47,964 nucleotides of DNA from Halococcus salsus. Lineage in GTDB: Archaea; Halobacteriota; Halobacteria; Halobacteriales; Halococcaceae. Both the position numbers and the translations under genes were made by a program. Within the stretch, counting starts at the first letter, position 1, and each line of letters opens with the position of its first letter. The DNA is taken from assembly GCF_009900715.1 (NCBI RefSeq), contig NZ_JAAAJC010000011.1:1-47964 (forward strand), in the 5' to 3' direction. Under the pieces are notes generated by a model. That model was not told the origin of the DNA, did not search any database, and was given only the letters and a program-made list of their open reading frames with translations. Below are positions 8,068 through 47,846 of this stretch, piece by piece.

Positions 8068-10992
8068 TCAGGTAGATAGTACAAACGACGCGTTCACTAG
8101 GGTTGGTTCTTCGGGCGTCACATGCCTGTCTTCTTCGAGTTGAGCTAGTTCTCGGTCTTGCTCACGTCGGAGGTTCTCAAGATTTCGGCGTGCGTTCCCA
8201 ATGGGGGCACTCATATCCGCTCCTTCCTCGGCACGCCGCTGGTAGGTTTCGAGCCGTTCCTCCCACGTGCCGATTCGCTCGCTGAAGTGCTGCTCTGCGT
8301 GTTGGCGCTTGATCGTGACCTCACGCTCGCGTTCGTCGCGTGCTTCTTGGGCGAAGCCTTGGACCTGCCTCCACGCTTCGTCGTCAGCAATCTGGTGAAG
8401 TGACGATGCTGCTCTCGCTAGTTGCTGAATCGTCGATGGTTCTACTACCTCCGGCGAAAGTGTCGACTCGATAGTGGGGGTGTCAGTTGTGACAGTACCA
8501 TCTTCGGTCACATACAACTGGATGAATTTCTCGGTGACGGCTTCGCCCGAACCCGCGACATATCCGACACGGAAGTTGAACAGAATACCGGGCGACACAT
8601 CGTCGGTCGTCGTCTTTGCCCCGACGTTACCCGCTATTTGCTTACCGCCGAGGCAGTAGTCGATGACTGCCTGAACGAGTGGATGGTCAAGCGCTATGAA
8701 CGATACCTCGTCGTGCTCCATCGCCACATCCCTCGTGAACGTTGCGTGTTCGTACTGCTGGTCGACCCGTTCGCCGGTCAGAACCCTCGGCACGTCGAGC
8801 TGGAAAATGTCGCCACCGGCCCTCGCTGGCCCCGGACGAACACCTCTGATGTCCCCTCCAAACACGTCGAAGAACTCGCGGACGAGCATCTCGATATCTG
8901 TCTCGCTCACCTCTCCCTCCCGACTCCGCTCGATCACGTCGAGGATCTCGCGATCTTCCTCCGAGAGATCAAATCGGTCCCGGATCAGGAAATCCCCCTC
9001 GACGGTCTCGAGAGCCTCCTTACGCTCGTTGATCGCACGGTCGATATCGGCGATGACCTCTTCGGTCGGTGTATCGGCCCCGATCGCCGCCATGATCTGC
9101 CCATCGAGGTCGATATTCTCCAGAACCCGACCGAGCACGTCCGAACGCATTCCGAGGTCCTCTTCGATCTGGTCGAGTTTCTCGATCAGGAGATTCAAGA
9201 TCTCGCTCTCGCGCGTGTCTTTGAAGAACAAGTTGCGGATCTCGACCGTTCGGTCCTGCCCATAGCGATGGAGCCGCCCCATTCGCTGGTCGATACGGAT
9301 AGGATTCCACGGCAGGTCGTAGTTGACCATGATATGGGCGAACTGGAGATTGAGCCCCTCGCGGGCGGCATCCGTGGCGAGCAGGATGTTCGCCTCGTTC
9401 TCGAACTTCTCCTGTTCACGTCGACGGCGGTCCTGGCTGAGGTCACCGTAGATCTGGGCGACGTCACGATCCTCGAAGATGGTATCTCGGAGGTATTCGA
9501 GCGTGTCCGTGTACTCGGTAAAGACAAGGACTTTCTCGTCTGGATCGCCAGCGAGAACCCCCTCAACGTACTCCTGAAGGAGACGAGCTTTCGAGTCAGT
9601 CGTAATGTCCTTTGCCTGTTGCCAAAGGCGTCTCACACGTTCGAGCTCCTCTTTGATCTGTTCTCGATTCAGGGTGATCGTCACCGTCTCCAACTCGGTT
9701 TCGACACGGGAGCGCTCGGCGTCGGTGAGCGTCTCGGGTTCGGTACTGTAGCGTGGAATGAGACCCTGAACGTCGTCTGAAAGGTCCTCGGCGACTGCAT
9801 CGTTTTGGATGGCGCGCATCCGGTTTTCGAGTGACTTCCGGATGGCGTAGATACTCGATACCAGCCGTTTCTGGTAGATGACCATCGTGAACCCTGCCGT
9901 GTGATTTTCCTCCTGCTGAGCGAGGTTGTAGTACTCCCGAATATACTCGGTGACGTCGTCGTAGAGACGACGTTCTTCGGGTGTCATCTTCACAGGGAGC
10001 GCCTCAATGTTCTTCTCGGGGAACATTCGCGTACCGTCCATCTCGTACATTCCATCCTTCAGACGACGGATCATCAGGTCGTCGAGAGCGTCGGGCGTGA
10101 TCTGGCTCTCGTGGGAGAATCGGTAGGGATCGAGGAGTCCAATGAGAAAGAAGAACTGGTCGGATTTGCCCTTGTGTGGCGTGCCGGTGAGGAGGATCAG
10201 TGCATCAGAGTTATGGGCCACTGCCTCGCCGACCATGAACCGCTGCGTTCGCTCGACTGACTCGTCACTGCCGCGTCGAGCGGTCAAGTGGTGGGCCTCG
10301 TCGAAAACCGCTGCGTCCCAGCCTTCTTCGAGGTTCTGGAGGGCTTCGAGCACGTCGTCTTGCTTGGCGAAATCGATCGACGTGATAATGAGGTCCTCTT
10401 GGAGCCATACGTTCTGGTTCGGATGGGAGCGACGGTAGGTCCGGACGGTGTCGCGGTCGTAGATAACGAAGTTTCGGTCGAACTTCTCGCGCATCTCTTC
10501 TTGCCACTGCACCGTGAGCGGCGCTGGCGCAACGATGAGAACGCGGTCAGCCCGACCACGGGCGATGAGCTCCTCAATGACGATACCGGCCTCGATGGTC
10601 TTACCGAGACCGACCTCGTCGCCAATGAGATACCGGTGGTCGTAGGAGTTCAGGATCTCGTAGGCGGCTTGGACCTGGTAGGGTTCGATCTCGATGCGGT
10701 TGTTCGTTAGCGAGAGAAAACGGTCGTAGCGGTAGGCCAAGTCGAGACGGGTTGCTCGTTCACGGAGATCGACGTGAACTGGGTCGTCGATCTGCTTTGC
10801 TACAAGACGGTCGACCACCGAATCGACTTTCTCGATATGGGGAAGTCCACTCGGGAGTTTGCGGAGCTGCCCATCGGTTGTGTAGACGTGGAGCAGGTCA
10901 CCCCCACCGTCGCGCTCTTCGATACGGGTAATCTCACCCTCGCCACCCGCGAACGTGACGTGGTCTTCGACCTCGAACCCGGAGTCAGTCAT
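8068..10992 (-). CDS. SNF2-family helicase of a restriction-like operon (DrmD-like)
   Basis: A 974-residue superfamily 2 helicase. In order it shows an N-terminal SH3-like region (DHVTFAGGEGEITRI), motif I DEVGLGKT near residue 130, motif II DEAH near 235, motif III LLTGTPHKG, helicase C motifs with LATDAAREGLNL and motif VI QRMGRLHRYGQ near 575, and a long charged, coiled-coil C terminus. This is the RapA/SNF2 type of DNA translocase. The ATG at 10992 overlaps the methyltransferase stop by 8 nt, so the pair is coupled. Pairing of such a helicase with a large adenine methyltransferase recalls DrmD-DrmMI of class 1 DISARM, but drmA, drmB and drmC are not nearby. Confidence 0.88.
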   Translation of the reverse strand: MTDSGFEVEDHVTFAGGEGEITRIEERDGGGDLLHVYTTDGQLRKLPSGLPHIEKVDSVVDRLVAKQIDDPVHVDLRERATRLDLAYRYDRFLSLTNNRIEIEPYQVQAAYEILNSYDHRYLIGDEVGLGKTIEAGIVIEELIARGRADRVLIVAPAPLTVQWQEEMREKFDRNFVIYDRDTVRTYRRSHPNQNVWLQEDLIITSIDFAKQDDVLEALQNLEEGWDAAVFDEAHHLTARRGSDESVERTQRFMVGEAVAHNSDALILLTGTPHKGKSDQFFFLIGLLDPYRFSHESQITPDALDDLMIRRLKDGMYEMDGTRMFPEKNIEALPVKMTPEERRLYDDVTEYIREYYNLAQQEENHTAGFTMVIYQKRLVSSIYAIRKSLENRMRAIQNDAVAEDLSDDVQGLIPRYSTEPETLTDAERSRVETELETVTITLNREQIKEELERVRRLWQQAKDITTDSKARLLQEYVEGVLAGDPDEKVLVFTEYTDTLEYLRDTIFEDRDVAQIYGDLSQDRRRREQEKFENEANILLATDAAREGLNLQFAHIMVNYDLPWNPIRIDQRMGRLHRYGQDRTVEIRNLFFKDTRESEILNLLIEKLDQIEEDLGMRSDVLGRVLENIDLDGQIMAAIGADTPTEEVIADIDRAINERKEALETVEGDFLIRDRFDLSEEDREILDVIERSREGEVSETDIEMLVREFFDVFGGDIRGVRPGPARAGGDIFQLDVPRVLTGERVDQQYEHATFTRDVAMEHDEVSFIALDHPLVQAVIDYCLGGKQIAGNVGAKTTTDDVSPGILFNFRVGYVAGSGEAVTEKFIQLYVTEDGTVTTDTPTIESTLSPEVVEPSTIQQLARAASSLHQIADDEAWRQVQGFAQEARDEREREVTIKRQHAEQHFSERIGTWEERLETYQRRAEEGADMSAPIGNARRNLENLRREQDRELAQLEEDRHVTPEEPTLVNASFVLST

Positions 10993-44203: not shown

Positions 44204-45140
44204 GGCTCTATTGAATCGCTGTAAGGCAGTAGATTTCACTGTTTGACGGAGCGTTTGATGTTGTAGACGAGGCACATCAGGGCGATCTCCCGAAACTCTC
44301 GATACCACTCACGCGCTCGCACGGCGAAGCCGAGCGAGCGCTTCACGGCTGAGTTCACCGTTTCGGTCATTGACCGCTGTGCGTAGAGATCCTCGTCGAT
44401 TCGAGCGTTGTGAGCGTGGTCGTACGGTGCGAAGATCCGGTGTTTGATTAACAGCCGTATTCTGATTTCACGCAACCGCTTGGGGAGTGCGTTCTTGTCG
44501 TAGCCTTTGTCTGCAGCAAGAGTCCGCAGATCGCCCGCGTTCCGGCGGGCGATCTGCTCGCACAGGTCGGCGTCACTTCCCCCAAGCGTGGTCGAGCAGT
44601 GCACGTCGAGGACGGCTTGGGATTCTGTATCGACGAGTTTGGTAACTTTGAGTGTCTGAATGCGGTAGTTGGTACGGTGGCAGTAGTGGCGGCTGGCGCG
44701 GTCTCGGTCGTAGAACGTGGCGTCGAGGGCGGCGTGTTCGGACGGGTCGTGCAGCTGCGCCGACTGGCGCAGCAGCACTCGACAGAGACTCATCTCGATC
44801 CGATCGAGTGCCTTACACAACGTCGACGATGCAGGGAGATCGGCCGCGTTGAGGCCAATCTCCCGAAGTATTTGTGGCATCTCCTTCAGCAGATCGATGG
44901 TCATTCGGTAGGTAGTATCGAGGTAAATCCGGAGACAGTGCAGTGAAACGAGGGCGTAGTCGGCGAATCCGCCGCCACCGTTCGGGGCGGCGGATTCGTC
45001 TCTATCGCCAGTAACGTTTTGAGCCACCAAACGCATCGCTCGGTGAAGCGAGAGATCTGGGTCATGATCCACACCGATCTCTCGCTTCAGCGCCTTTGAT
45101 TTAGCGACTGATCCCGCCGCCTAGTGATTCAACAGATCCC
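44204..45140 (-). mobile_element. IS5-type insertion sequence (copy 2)
   Basis: The left end GGGCTCTATTGAATCGCTGT (from about 44204) and the right end, complement GGGATCTGTTGAATCACTAG (to about 45140), form imperfect terminal repeats like those of copy 1. One transposase gene fills the element. Exact edges and target duplication could not be fixed by eye. Confidence 0.7.
44236..45072 (-). CDS. IS5-family transposase
   Basis: A 278-residue DDE transposase if started at the GTG at 45072; an earlier start is possible because the frame remains open toward the IS end. Catalytic blocks are ALDATFYDRD, LRTLAADKGYDKN and SMTETVNSAVKRSLGFAVRAREWYREFREI. It resembles the remnant at 38723 in its IKHR.FA segment and C terminus. 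No frameshift is visible, so it may be functional. Confidence 0.85.
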   Translation of the reverse strand: MDHDPDLSLHRAMRLVAQNVTGDRDESAAPNGGGGFADYALVSLHCLRIYLDTTYRMTIDLLKEMPQILREIGLNAADLPASSTLCKALDRIEMSLCRVLLRQSAQLHDPSEHAALDATFYDRDRASRHYCHRTNYRIQTLKVTKLVDTESQAVLDVHCSTTLGGSDADLCEQIARRNAGDLRTLAADKGYDKNALPKRLREIRIRLLIKHRIFAPYDHAHNARIDEDLYAQRSMTETVNSAVKRSLGFAVRAREWYREFREIALMCLVYNIKRSVKQ

Positions 45141-45361
45141 AGATGACTCAGCGTGGCCGCCGCGAAATCGAGGCCCGTCGCGAGTGGGAAGAACAATACG
45201 TTGCTGCCGAGGCTTGATAGCCACCGCTCACATATCAAGAACGAAACAATGAGCGATGGGAATGGTGTTGTGACGAGTCTCACATCCCGAACTGCGGTTT
45301 GAGAGGGATTGCTGACCGCGAGCGTGAAACGTCTATTCTGGAGGACGAGACCAAACGTCGA

Positions 45362-45518
45362 ATGTGTTGTGCTATTTGGTAACAAGAACTAAGGGGCCCT
45401 AACCCATAGCGAGACATGCAGGCGTGTTGCCTGTACTACGTGCGGCCAACACGGGGACACCGCGCGTAGGAGTATACACAAACCACGGGCCGGGGGGCAA
45501 ACCGGCCGGCCCATTTTC
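45362..45518 (-). ncRNA. structured RNA candidate, right copy of inverted repeat IR-B
   Basis: Reverse-complement copy of 28113-28268. Read on the minus strand it keeps the four hairpins. Relative to the left copy, stem changes are A to G (opposite T) at the end of stem 1, C to T (opposite G) in stem 2, and A to G plus T to C in stem 3. All preserve pairing in RNA read from this strand, while the opposite strand would have A-C mismatches. Its flanks differ from those of the left copy. Confidence 0.55.
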
Positions 45519-45741
45519 TACCCAGACATCTGTTAGTGAATGGCTTCGGAAGCAGGGCAGAGGTTGGGGAGCAAGGCTGAGAAAACACTTTGGAGGTCAG
45601 CTCAAGGTGATTGTTCTTTTGTAGGGCTCCACAGTAGTCAAATCGTTCGAGAGGGTTCTAATCTGTCCCAAATCGGATGAGAGATAGACCACTGAGATAC
45701 GTCAATCACTTGTCTGAGAAGCGTAGTAGGAAAGGCCGCAA

Positions 45742-45899
45742 GGACGGTCACAAAGCGGGACAGTCGGCGATGCTGATGTGCCCTGTGCTCCCGGTGGCGA
45801 CGGAAGCAACAACCCACACCATATCAACGAAACCATTGTTCCGGGCTGTCTCGCGTGAAAACCGTACTTCGTCATCATCTTAGCGATAGACCAATGCTC
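45742..45899 (+). ncRNA. tandem structured RNA candidate, unit 1
   Basis: First of two diverged direct repeats. Shared landmarks are GGTCACAAAG near the start and CGCGTGAAA followed by CCG..CTTCGTC near the end. A closing stem pairs 45755-45763 (GCGGGACAG) with 45846-45854 (CTGTCTCGC), nine pairs with one G-U. The stem can extend to about 13 pairs with one bulged G. Short overlapping reading frames exist but are not conserved between units. Confidence 0.5.
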
Positions 45900-45946
45900 A
45901 TAGCCACACGTTTATTGTTGACGACATACTCAGCCCAGATACGAAG

Positions 45947-46118
45947 GCGGTCACAAAGTGAGGTGGTGGGCGTTGCCGATGTGCGCTGGACCCCCAGTAG
46001 CGTTGGAGGTAGCAAACGCCGATCACGTGTGTACCCCAACACATCATCGAAAGCATAGTTCCTACCACCTCGCGTGAAATCCGCTCTTCGTCGTAACTTA
46101 GAGAGTCGGAGCATCAAC
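45947..46118 (+). ncRNA. tandem structured RNA candidate, unit 2
   Basis: Second repeat unit, about 200 nt after the first. The same stem is formed by different bases: 45958-45970 (GTGAGGTGGTGGG) with 46061-46073 (CCTACCACCTCGC), 13 pairs with two wobbles. Compared with unit 1, three base pairs changed on both sides (A-U to G-C, C-G to U-A, A-U to G-C). An inner stem GGCGTT/AACGCC is also present here. Confidence 0.5.
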
Positions 46119-46383
46119 CTGCGGAACAATCACTGTTGGGTCGTTCTGGCTGGAGAGAAAAGCCTAGAAAGAGCTCCTTCTGAATAAGAAGTTCAAGTTA
46201 TTTACCTGGAGACCTCGGACGGGCCTACACATTTTAGATAGAGCAGATATCAAGCCAATACCGCTGATAGTCTACCAAACTATCACACTACTACGCTTGA
46301 ACTTCGTCGATCTCTTCAATACTAATATGACACACTTATCACTTAGACAAAAGACCGATACAGCTCCGAAGTAAGGTTAGTAT

Positions 46384-47211
46384 ATGGTACCTAATCAACC
46401 GATTACAGAGATATCCAAGTCGAATCTCCTCAACGAAATTCTCGAGAATGAGTCACACGACCTCCTTTGCACTGGGTTCAATGAAGCTCTCGTTGAGGCA
46501 CTCATCACCGTACTCGAGGAAAGAGATGACCCACCGACTGTCCATCTCCTTGCGACCACATCCGTATTGAGATGGGTTCGAGACGATTTCGACCTGGCGA
46601 GCGGGGCTGCAGACCTTGTTGAGAGTGGAAGGCTCTCATTACGGGCAGGCGAAGGCACATTTGAGAATCAATTGGTCATCATTGAGGAGTCAGTTGTTTC
46701 GCTTGTCACCACCGGTGAGAACCCTGTAGCTCTCCCAACTGACCACGAGGAATTCGTTGGTGCAGCAAACGAAAAGTGGAACGACCGTTGGAACCGGGCC
46801 GAAGAGTTCTCACTCCGAACCCCAGGACGCTCACGGATTGAAGAGTCCCTAAGGGAAGAATTCGGCTCGGCGGTCGAGACGGATTTCCGAGCGATGCTTG
46901 ACGCTGTTGGGGGTACTCGTAGCGATGAGAATCTTGACGTGGTAGACATCTGCCTTCTCGTGGCTGCCAAGCACGAACTCCTCCTCTACGATATCTCGAA
47001 CTGGGGCGAGGAGGTCGGCGTTGCGAGCAAGGCAACCTTCTCGCGAGGGAAGAACACTCTCGAAGAGGGCGGGCTGATCGAGACCGAGAAGGTCCCGATC
47101 GACGTTGGTCGGCCGCGTCTCCGACTTCTCTTCGGTAAGGATGAACTGCAGGACGCTGATATGGACGCTCTCCCAAGTGTCGCTCAGCGATTGCTCTCAG
47201 AAGCGGCATAG
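46384..47211 (+). CDS. TbsP-like (DUF5821-type) transcriptional regulator, paralog 2
   Basis: A 275-residue protein similar along its whole length to the one at 32588. The C-terminal half is nearly the same: LLVAAKHE, LLYDIS.WGE, VGVASKATFSR, then ETEKVPIDVGRPRLRL. The N-terminal domain is more diverged, which suggests a different ligand or partner with the same type of DNA-binding domain. The ATG is preceded by AAGG. Its product ends about 80 nt before the right IR-A repeat. The family name TbsP is from memory. Confidence 0.7.
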   Translation: MVPNQPITEISKSNLLNEILENESHDLLCTGFNEALVEALITVLEERDDPPTVHLLATTSVLRWVRDDFDLASGAADLVESGRLSLRAGEGTFENQLVIIEESVVSLVTTGENPVALPTDHEEFVGAANEKWNDRWNRAEEFSLRTPGRSRIEESLREEFGSAVETDFRAMLDAVGGTRSDENLDVVDICLLVAAKHELLLYDISNWGEEVGVASKATFSRGKNTLEEGGLIETEKVPIDVGRPRLRLLFGKDELQDADMDALPSVAQRLLSEAA

Positions 47212-47288
47212 TTCTTCCAGTTGGTTTGACAGAGCCTACTGGCCCTTTCCTAAGTTGCAATGAAAATTCGGGCTGGTTCGAAATGGAC

Positions 47289-47846
47289 TCTTACCTAACG
47301 TTCGGACCGAGATCAGGTTCGATTGTTTGGTAAGACGTTAAGCACCAACCGAATCCCGGCAGAGTTGTTGATGGTGAGTAGAACTCGCGAGAAGAATCGG
47401 CAACGTGTGGTGAGCGGCAGGCAAGTGCTTGCGTTGTTGCTTCCGATTCTGTTCCTGTAGTACTTACAGCTCCCTCATATGTGTAGGCACATGGTTGCAC
47501 AGGCGCGCGGAATCTTCATGAAATGGCAGAACGAAGGTTGATGGCATGGCAACAATCACCTGCGATAACTGTGGAGAGGAGACAGAATACGACGATTCGG
47601 ATTCGACGGACCAAGTCCCTTGTACGCACTGCAATAACATGATCCAAATCAACGACTAGTCTCCGGGTCTATCGGAGCCGCTCTGGGAGTCGTGGATCAA
47701 CCAATTTTGAACCGTGTGCACACTCTACTCAGTGTAGGTAGTAAACAGAGTAGAAGACGTAGGAGTCGTAGAGTGGCTAAGCCGAGTTGAAGTAACTGGG
47801 ATGGTTGGAAAGGAGTACCTTTTCGACAGTAGAATAATCGACATAA
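47289..47846. repeat. right copy of the ~560-bp inverted repeat (IR-A)
   Basis: Reverse complement of 22841-23399. The inner edge has the TCTTACC/GGTAAGA hairpin (47289-47333), and the outer edge reads CAGTAGAATAATCGACATAA. The plus strand also folds a long hairpin AGAATCGG ... CCGATTCT at about 47395-47449, which is less perfect in the left copy. It contains the second copy of the 37-residue zinc-ribbon gene. Confidence 0.9.
47546..47659 (+). CDS. 37-residue zinc-ribbon mini-protein (right copy)
   Basis: Identical to the left copy at 23028-23141 except for one Ile to Val change at residue 24... within TDQVPCTHC. Two CxxC pairs form a zinc ribbon. The four base differences from the left copy (three silent) contrast with the more diverged flanks, supporting a real protein under selection. 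An alternative ATG 5 nt upstream is in another frame. Confidence 0.75.
   Translation: MATITCDNCGEETEYDDSDSTDQVPCTHCNNMIQIND

Follow-up and report, generated by a model that had tools for sequence, protein, structure and literature searches.

A family of structured RNAs in Halococcus with a bulge-helix-bulge at the foot of the stem: candidate genes for excised, circular RNAs

The window (the whole 47,964-nt stretch of Halococcus salsus DNA analysed, contig NZ_JAAAJC010000011.1) carries two diverged units, U1 and U2, the second beginning 203 bases downstream of the first (Table 1). The units share direct repeats at 45745-45812 / 45948-46015 (72% identity) and at 45850-45873 / 46069-46092 (88% identity). 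The stem of U1 is formed by GCGGGACAG (45755-45763) and CTGTCTCGC (45846-45854), and that of U2 by GTGAGGTGG (45958-45966) and CCACCTCGC (46065-46073); the full units are longer than these stems. Between the two stems both bases are changed at pairs 6, 7, and 8 (A-U/G-C, C-G/U-A, and A-U/G-C, respectively), while at pairs 2 and 4 the change is one-sided, with a G-U in one of the units. The repeats, both stems, and the five changed pairs had been reported in an earlier note made from the sequence alone, and proved correct to the base; that note saw just a pair and missed the dispersed family to which it belongs. The folding energy of U2 is 4.3-5.7 standard deviations below that of dinucleotide shuffles (z-score -4.3 to -5.7). 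Since U1 is only 0.8-1.7 standard deviations below its shuffles, folding energy alone is not decisive, and it is the homologs that decide.

A TbsP-like transcription regulator gene lies downstream of the units, and an IS5-family transposase gene (44236-45072, minus strand) is found ~670 bases upstream of U1. The segment 45423-45520 contains an inverted repeat with arms at 45423-45436 and 45440-45453, and after it a G+C-rich palindrome plus TTTT (GGCCGG...CCGGCC...ATTTTCT). It has no Rfam match and, judged only by its appearance, might be a further small RNA gene or a terminator.

Table 1. Features of the repeat pair and its surroundings (positions in the window; excised RNAs are predictions).
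Feature	Position	Strand	Remarks
U1 of the RNA family	45738-45880	+	cmsearch R2 135.1 bits, E 1.4e-33
U1 BHB, 5' strand	45743-45765	+	outer GACGG 45743-45747, UCAC 45748-45751, bulge AAA 45752-45754, inner helix start 45755-45765
U1 BHB, 3' strand	45844-45866	+	inner 45844-45854, GUGA 45855-45858, bulge AAA 45859-45861, outer CCGUA 45862-45866
Predicted excised (circular) RNA of U1	45754-45860	+	107 nt; inferred, not observed
TATA-like box TTTATT	45911-45916	+	25-30 bases before U2; read from sequence
U2 of the RNA family	45941-46099	+	cmsearch R2 130.5 bits, E 2.4e-32
U2 BHB, 5' strand	45946-45968	+	outer GGCGG 45946-45950, UCAC 45951-45954, bulge AAA 45955-45957, inner 45958-45968
U2 BHB, 3' strand	46063-46085	+	inner 46063-46073, GUGA 46074-46077, bulge AAU 46078-46080, outer CCGCU 46081-46085
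Predicted excised (circular) RNA of U2	45957-46079	+	123 nt; inferred, not observed
TbsP-like transcription regulator gene	46384-47211	+	NF047393 360 bits (cut-off 300); PF19138, PF23336

A DNA search of the H. salsus genome revealed further copies on three other contigs. Two covariance models were built, R1 from seven copies and the broader R2 from 32; U1 and U2 are both in the training set of R2, and the score of U1 is therefore high by construction. The covariance-model search of haloarchaeal genomes that the earlier note had proposed was run and yielded 40 copies, all within the genus, in 8 of the 10 Halococcus genomes: 7 in H. salsus and between 0 and 20 among its congeners, with 20 in one of them. 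The same kind of search found no copies in the three remaining genera of Halococcaceae. Over 391 haloarchaeal genomes spanning 86 genera, no match outside Halococcus was convincing: the five obtained at class level, with E of 0.002-0.009 per genome, are what chance alone would give over 391 genomes and were dropped. Within our sample, the family is thus limited to Halococcus; the search over the 391 genomes ran with stricter filters, and very diverged relatives could have escaped it.

The copies are both dispersed and clustered. Tandem copies are present in the window (two), on contig G006:C105 (at least five), and on G006:C6 (at least four). Two R2 matches lie on plasmid unnamed4 of Halococcus dombrowskii (NZ_CP095009.1, 164740-164893 and 312797-312951), with none on the three other plasmids of the same strain. 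This plasmid also bears a 16S rRNA gene (8573-9501 of locus L250). A blastn search of the repeat pair against plasmids and phages gave no match, although the covariance model finds the plasmid copies. A loose sequence-motif scan of the genome contigs returned what appear to be chance matches, and the same motif in viral contigs gave model scores at chance level only. All H. salsus copies sit on four contigs that together make up ~9% of the assembly, and the examined parts of the copy-bearing contigs have a G+C content of 53-55% vs 60% around the rRNA operon, which suggests accessory DNA. Similarity between unrelated loci is confined to the RNA unit; a search around the L057 copy revealed no clear syntenic empty site.

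The fold was evaluated in an alignment of 39 copies fitted to R2 (most rows also trained R2). In this alignment 93.6% of the cells are paired and 35 of the 38 pairs show two-sided changes. Pairing falls to 34-41% once the partners are slid by one to three columns, none of 500 shuffles reaches any of the five covariation measures, and the slid controls also remain below. The same stem emerges from structure-free alignments of the two sub-groups, with two-sided changes at 13 pairs in the window's sub-group (7 copies) and at 11 in the G+C-rich sub-group (19 copies); aligned apart, the sub-groups give an identical foot. A single MAFFT alignment of both was discarded, as the 3' strand was off by one base between the sub-groups and the fold was poor. 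A by-eye attempt at an additional helix, GGCGNYG / CAU.GUUCC, worked for some copies but not for others, and the helix is not claimed. G-U pairs outnumber A-C combinations by four to one (170 vs 43 cells), therefore selection acts on the plus-strand RNA. A coding explanation was rejected: each frame is open in at most 18 of the 39 copies, and the spacing of the core is not kept in threes. The earlier note had taken the changed pairs as a conserved RNA fold transcribed from the plus strand, which would have been refuted by the absence of significant covariation or by homologs conserved as protein-coding frames; the fold held, the strand is supported, and neither refutation occurred. We regard the membership of the pair in a genuine family of structured RNAs as practically certain.

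The two-sided changes also bear on the possibility that the units are non-autonomous DNA transposons (MITE-like) whose inverted arms fold by accident. Such elements would be dispersed multi-copy units, as these are, and the IS5 transposase gene lies upstream. Against this, the changes preserve pairing across very diverged copies, and the excess of G-U over A-C sets the two strands apart, as would be expected for an RNA but not for a DNA hairpin, so that we regard this explanation as very unlikely.

No match to Rfam 15 was found over any unit (the only hits were sub-cut-off chance matches of snoRNA type, none over a unit), in line with the earlier note, which knew of no haloarchaeal RNA family with this shape. 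A C/D-box guide RNA was considered and rejected, the exact C box RUGAUGA being present in 0/39 copies and the D box CUGA in 16/39. No description of such a haloarchaeal family was found in the open-access literature searched; subscription papers were outside its scope and priority is unproven. The family is likely to have been unlisted before.

The foot of the stem, which the earlier note had missed, is a canonical archaeal bulge-helix-bulge (BHB) of the hBHBh' type. In both sub-groups it consists of an outer helix, a central four-pair helix that is followed immediately 3' on each strand by a 3-nt bulge, and the long inner stem. All four central pairs are formed, with differing sequences, in 29/39 aligned copies; of these, 27 combine the helix with two 3-nt bulges and thus have the complete 3-4-3 foot, and five more copies miss one central pair. 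The bases differ widely, and both bulges are 3 nt long in 32/39 copies. Covariation is observed at all four pairs of the central helix (helix 2), and helices 1 and 3 are paired in 91.7% and 92.5% of cells, respectively. The remaining 7/39 copies have no intact foot (some are truncated or decayed matches), therefore not every copy need be processed. For U1, the same consensus was predicted independently from the structure-free alignment of the window's sub-group, and the minimum-energy fold of U2 by itself displays the 3-4-3 foot; in single-sequence minimum-energy folds the motif is visible in some copies only. A strict BHB scan matches 15/39 units, with 0.1 expected from shuffles, while the mirror polarity is matched in 2/39. 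As a polarity control, the 16S and 23S processing stems of H. salsus gave one match each in the same polarity and none in the mirror polarity.

The haloarchaeal (Haloferax) tRNA-splicing endonuclease EndA strictly requires the hBHBh' motif, and its products are circularised (PMC7714728). The criteria are met here: a four-pair central helix, two 3-nt bulges of the right polarity, and flanking helices; cleavage and ligation are inferred. It could be argued that the RNA is a linear structured small RNA, in which the 3-4-3 foot binds a protein or adds stability and always remains uncut. This would predict the fold and covariation equally, and no cleavage data exist. However, sequence turnover has left the exact 3-nt bulges, the exact 4-bp helix, and the polarity that EndA uses intact, the foot matches the rRNA processing stems of the same genome, and EndA cuts such motifs wherever tested in Haloferax, in one case outside tRNA and rRNA (PMC7714728). 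A linear, uncut RNA is consequently considered unlikely.

Our preferred reading is that each unit is a stand-alone RNA gene whose inner RNA is excised by EndA and ligated into a circle, to which we assign a probability of roughly 0.74; cleavage and circularity are inferred, in the absence of transcript data. Every unit would be its own gene in Halococcus, with transcription starting at the stem foot or close to it (~50 nt earlier in one sub-group), and the RNA would fold into a rod closed by the hBHBh' motif. The host EndA would then cut between the second and third base of each 3-nt bulge, releasing an inner RNA of 100-124 nt (median 115.5 when a cut after the second base of each bulge is applied to the alignment), and a host ligase, probably RtcB, would close it into a circle. 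EndA processing is likely, and the circular product is likely too, with a slightly lower degree of confidence. The segment after the apical hairpin varies freely, and the core GGCGNYGCYG / GUGGCGA / CGAAA..CAU.GUUCC, with GUGGCGA in apical position, is conserved and would be the working part. Because this core is unpaired, a binding partner may be argued for, and the core would most likely be the surface on which a protein or another RNA docks. The genes would multiply through local tandem duplication and on accessory DNA.

Upstream of the units, TATA-like words occur ~20-30 bases before the unit in 6/39 copies and are nearly absent farther upstream; no clear TATA-like promoter box was found upstream of U1. 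In other copies, words resembling CGAAAG..CTAC occur around -31 to -35, and in one sub-group a related word is located at -81 to -90, the sequence between word and unit being conserved. These words are promoter-like by position only, and their use as promoters is inferred. Seven copies (L062, L060, L064, L066, L065, L220, and L068) share a conserved 5' extension located ~35-85 bases before the unit, lying between the promoter-like word and the unit, with GUGC..GCAC and GUUGGG.UGCUCACCC.CAAC. The extension could be an additional domain of the RNA, or possibly a separate small RNA.

The earlier note had left open whether the pair is a leader of the TbsP-like gene or a free RNA. A cis-acting leader is suggested by U2 ending 284 bases before this gene on the same strand, and by a TbsP gene near two other H. 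salsus loci. These three are the only RNA loci with such a neighbour, all in this genome; at one of them, L054, the TbsP gene is upstream of the RNA unit, and the gene order contradicts a leader. In other genomes the RNA adjoins unrelated genes, and both annotated copies, those of the H. dombrowskii plasmid, lie in ~1.2-kb intergenic gaps facing a convergent gene. The leader reading is not supported and all but excluded, the free RNA is favoured, and the TbsP-like gene is likely not part of the RNA system. Of the same region, it can be noted that window 45335-45868 + 46330-47449 corresponds to L054 7955-8488 + 6832-7954 as two blocks joined in opposite order (one comprising the upstream region and U1, the other the TbsP gene and the region that follows it); the junction falls exactly between the blocks, as if, possibly, a ~2.1 kb segment had once been circular or tandem.

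No gene recurs beside the copies, and no mobility protein is repeatedly found there, which is relevant to the last alternative, an intron-like or selfish RNA element spreading in non-coding DNA and removed from transcripts by EndA, the circle having no cellular task. This is supported by the copy number varying from 0 to 20 among congeners, by the tandem arrays, by copies on accessory contigs and a plasmid, and by the L056 copy directly before a same-strand gene, like the BHB intron in the HVO_1309 5' UTR. On the other hand, the conserved unpaired core and the promoter-like words at a fixed distance suggest a gene of its own, no copy was identified inside a coding gene, and the recurring mobility protein is missing. 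We consider this reading less likely but cannot rule it out, and it overlaps with the preferred one because the excision step is common to both.

Several known systems resemble the Halococcus family in part. Archaeal pre-tRNA introns, such as the circular C/D-box intron that Haloferax and Halobacterium carry in tRNA-Trp (PMC7714728, PMC12558985), likewise have hBHBh' at the base and an inner RNA of ~100 nt, and are substrates of EndA with a circle as product; unlike them, the Halococcus units lie outside a tRNA gene in many dispersed copies, with promoter-like words and without a C box (0/39). The 16S and 23S pre-rRNA processing stems of H. salsus have the same BHB geometry and enclose rRNA, whereas the units enclose an unrelated RNA. 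In Haloferax volcanii, the BHB intron of the HVO_1309 5' UTR is outside tRNA and rRNA, is cut in vitro, and its circle has been detected (PMC7714728), but it is a single 46-nt case in one mRNA leader, in contrast to a multi-copy family with a conserved inner fold. The omega-RNAs of IS200/IS605 elements in haloarchaea are circular, dispersed RNAs of mobile DNA (PMC12558985), reported without a BHB and as part of transposon genes, whereas no gene recurs beside the Halococcus family. Likewise genus-specific and of similar length is the 108-nt insert in 5S rRNA reported in all Halococcus examined (PMC7530397); kinship with it was rejected, as R2 matched none of five rRNA-locus sequences searched with E up to 5. 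5S rRNA was found in 9/10 Halococcus genomes (L226-L234), with a large insert at the expected place where read out, and the standard 5S model scores only the portion before the insert.

BHB circles are known from the maturation of tRNA and rRNA and, outside these, only from rare single cases. If the preferred reading is true, what is new here is a family of stand-alone RNA genes, present in many copies, that is organised around the tRNA-splicing cut site. The analysis yields a covariance model, exact predicted junctions, and a named species with copies (H. dombrowskii, plasmid unnamed4). In a bolder reading, which we hold to be as likely right as wrong, Halococcus would possess a class of genes devoted to circular RNAs: dispersed and duplicating genes that stand alone and whose RNAs mature via the tRNA-splicing machinery, the circles having a cellular or selfish task to which many diverged copies contribute. 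Should the preferred reading be correct, the archaeon, or an element living in it, would make circular RNAs as a product in their own right.
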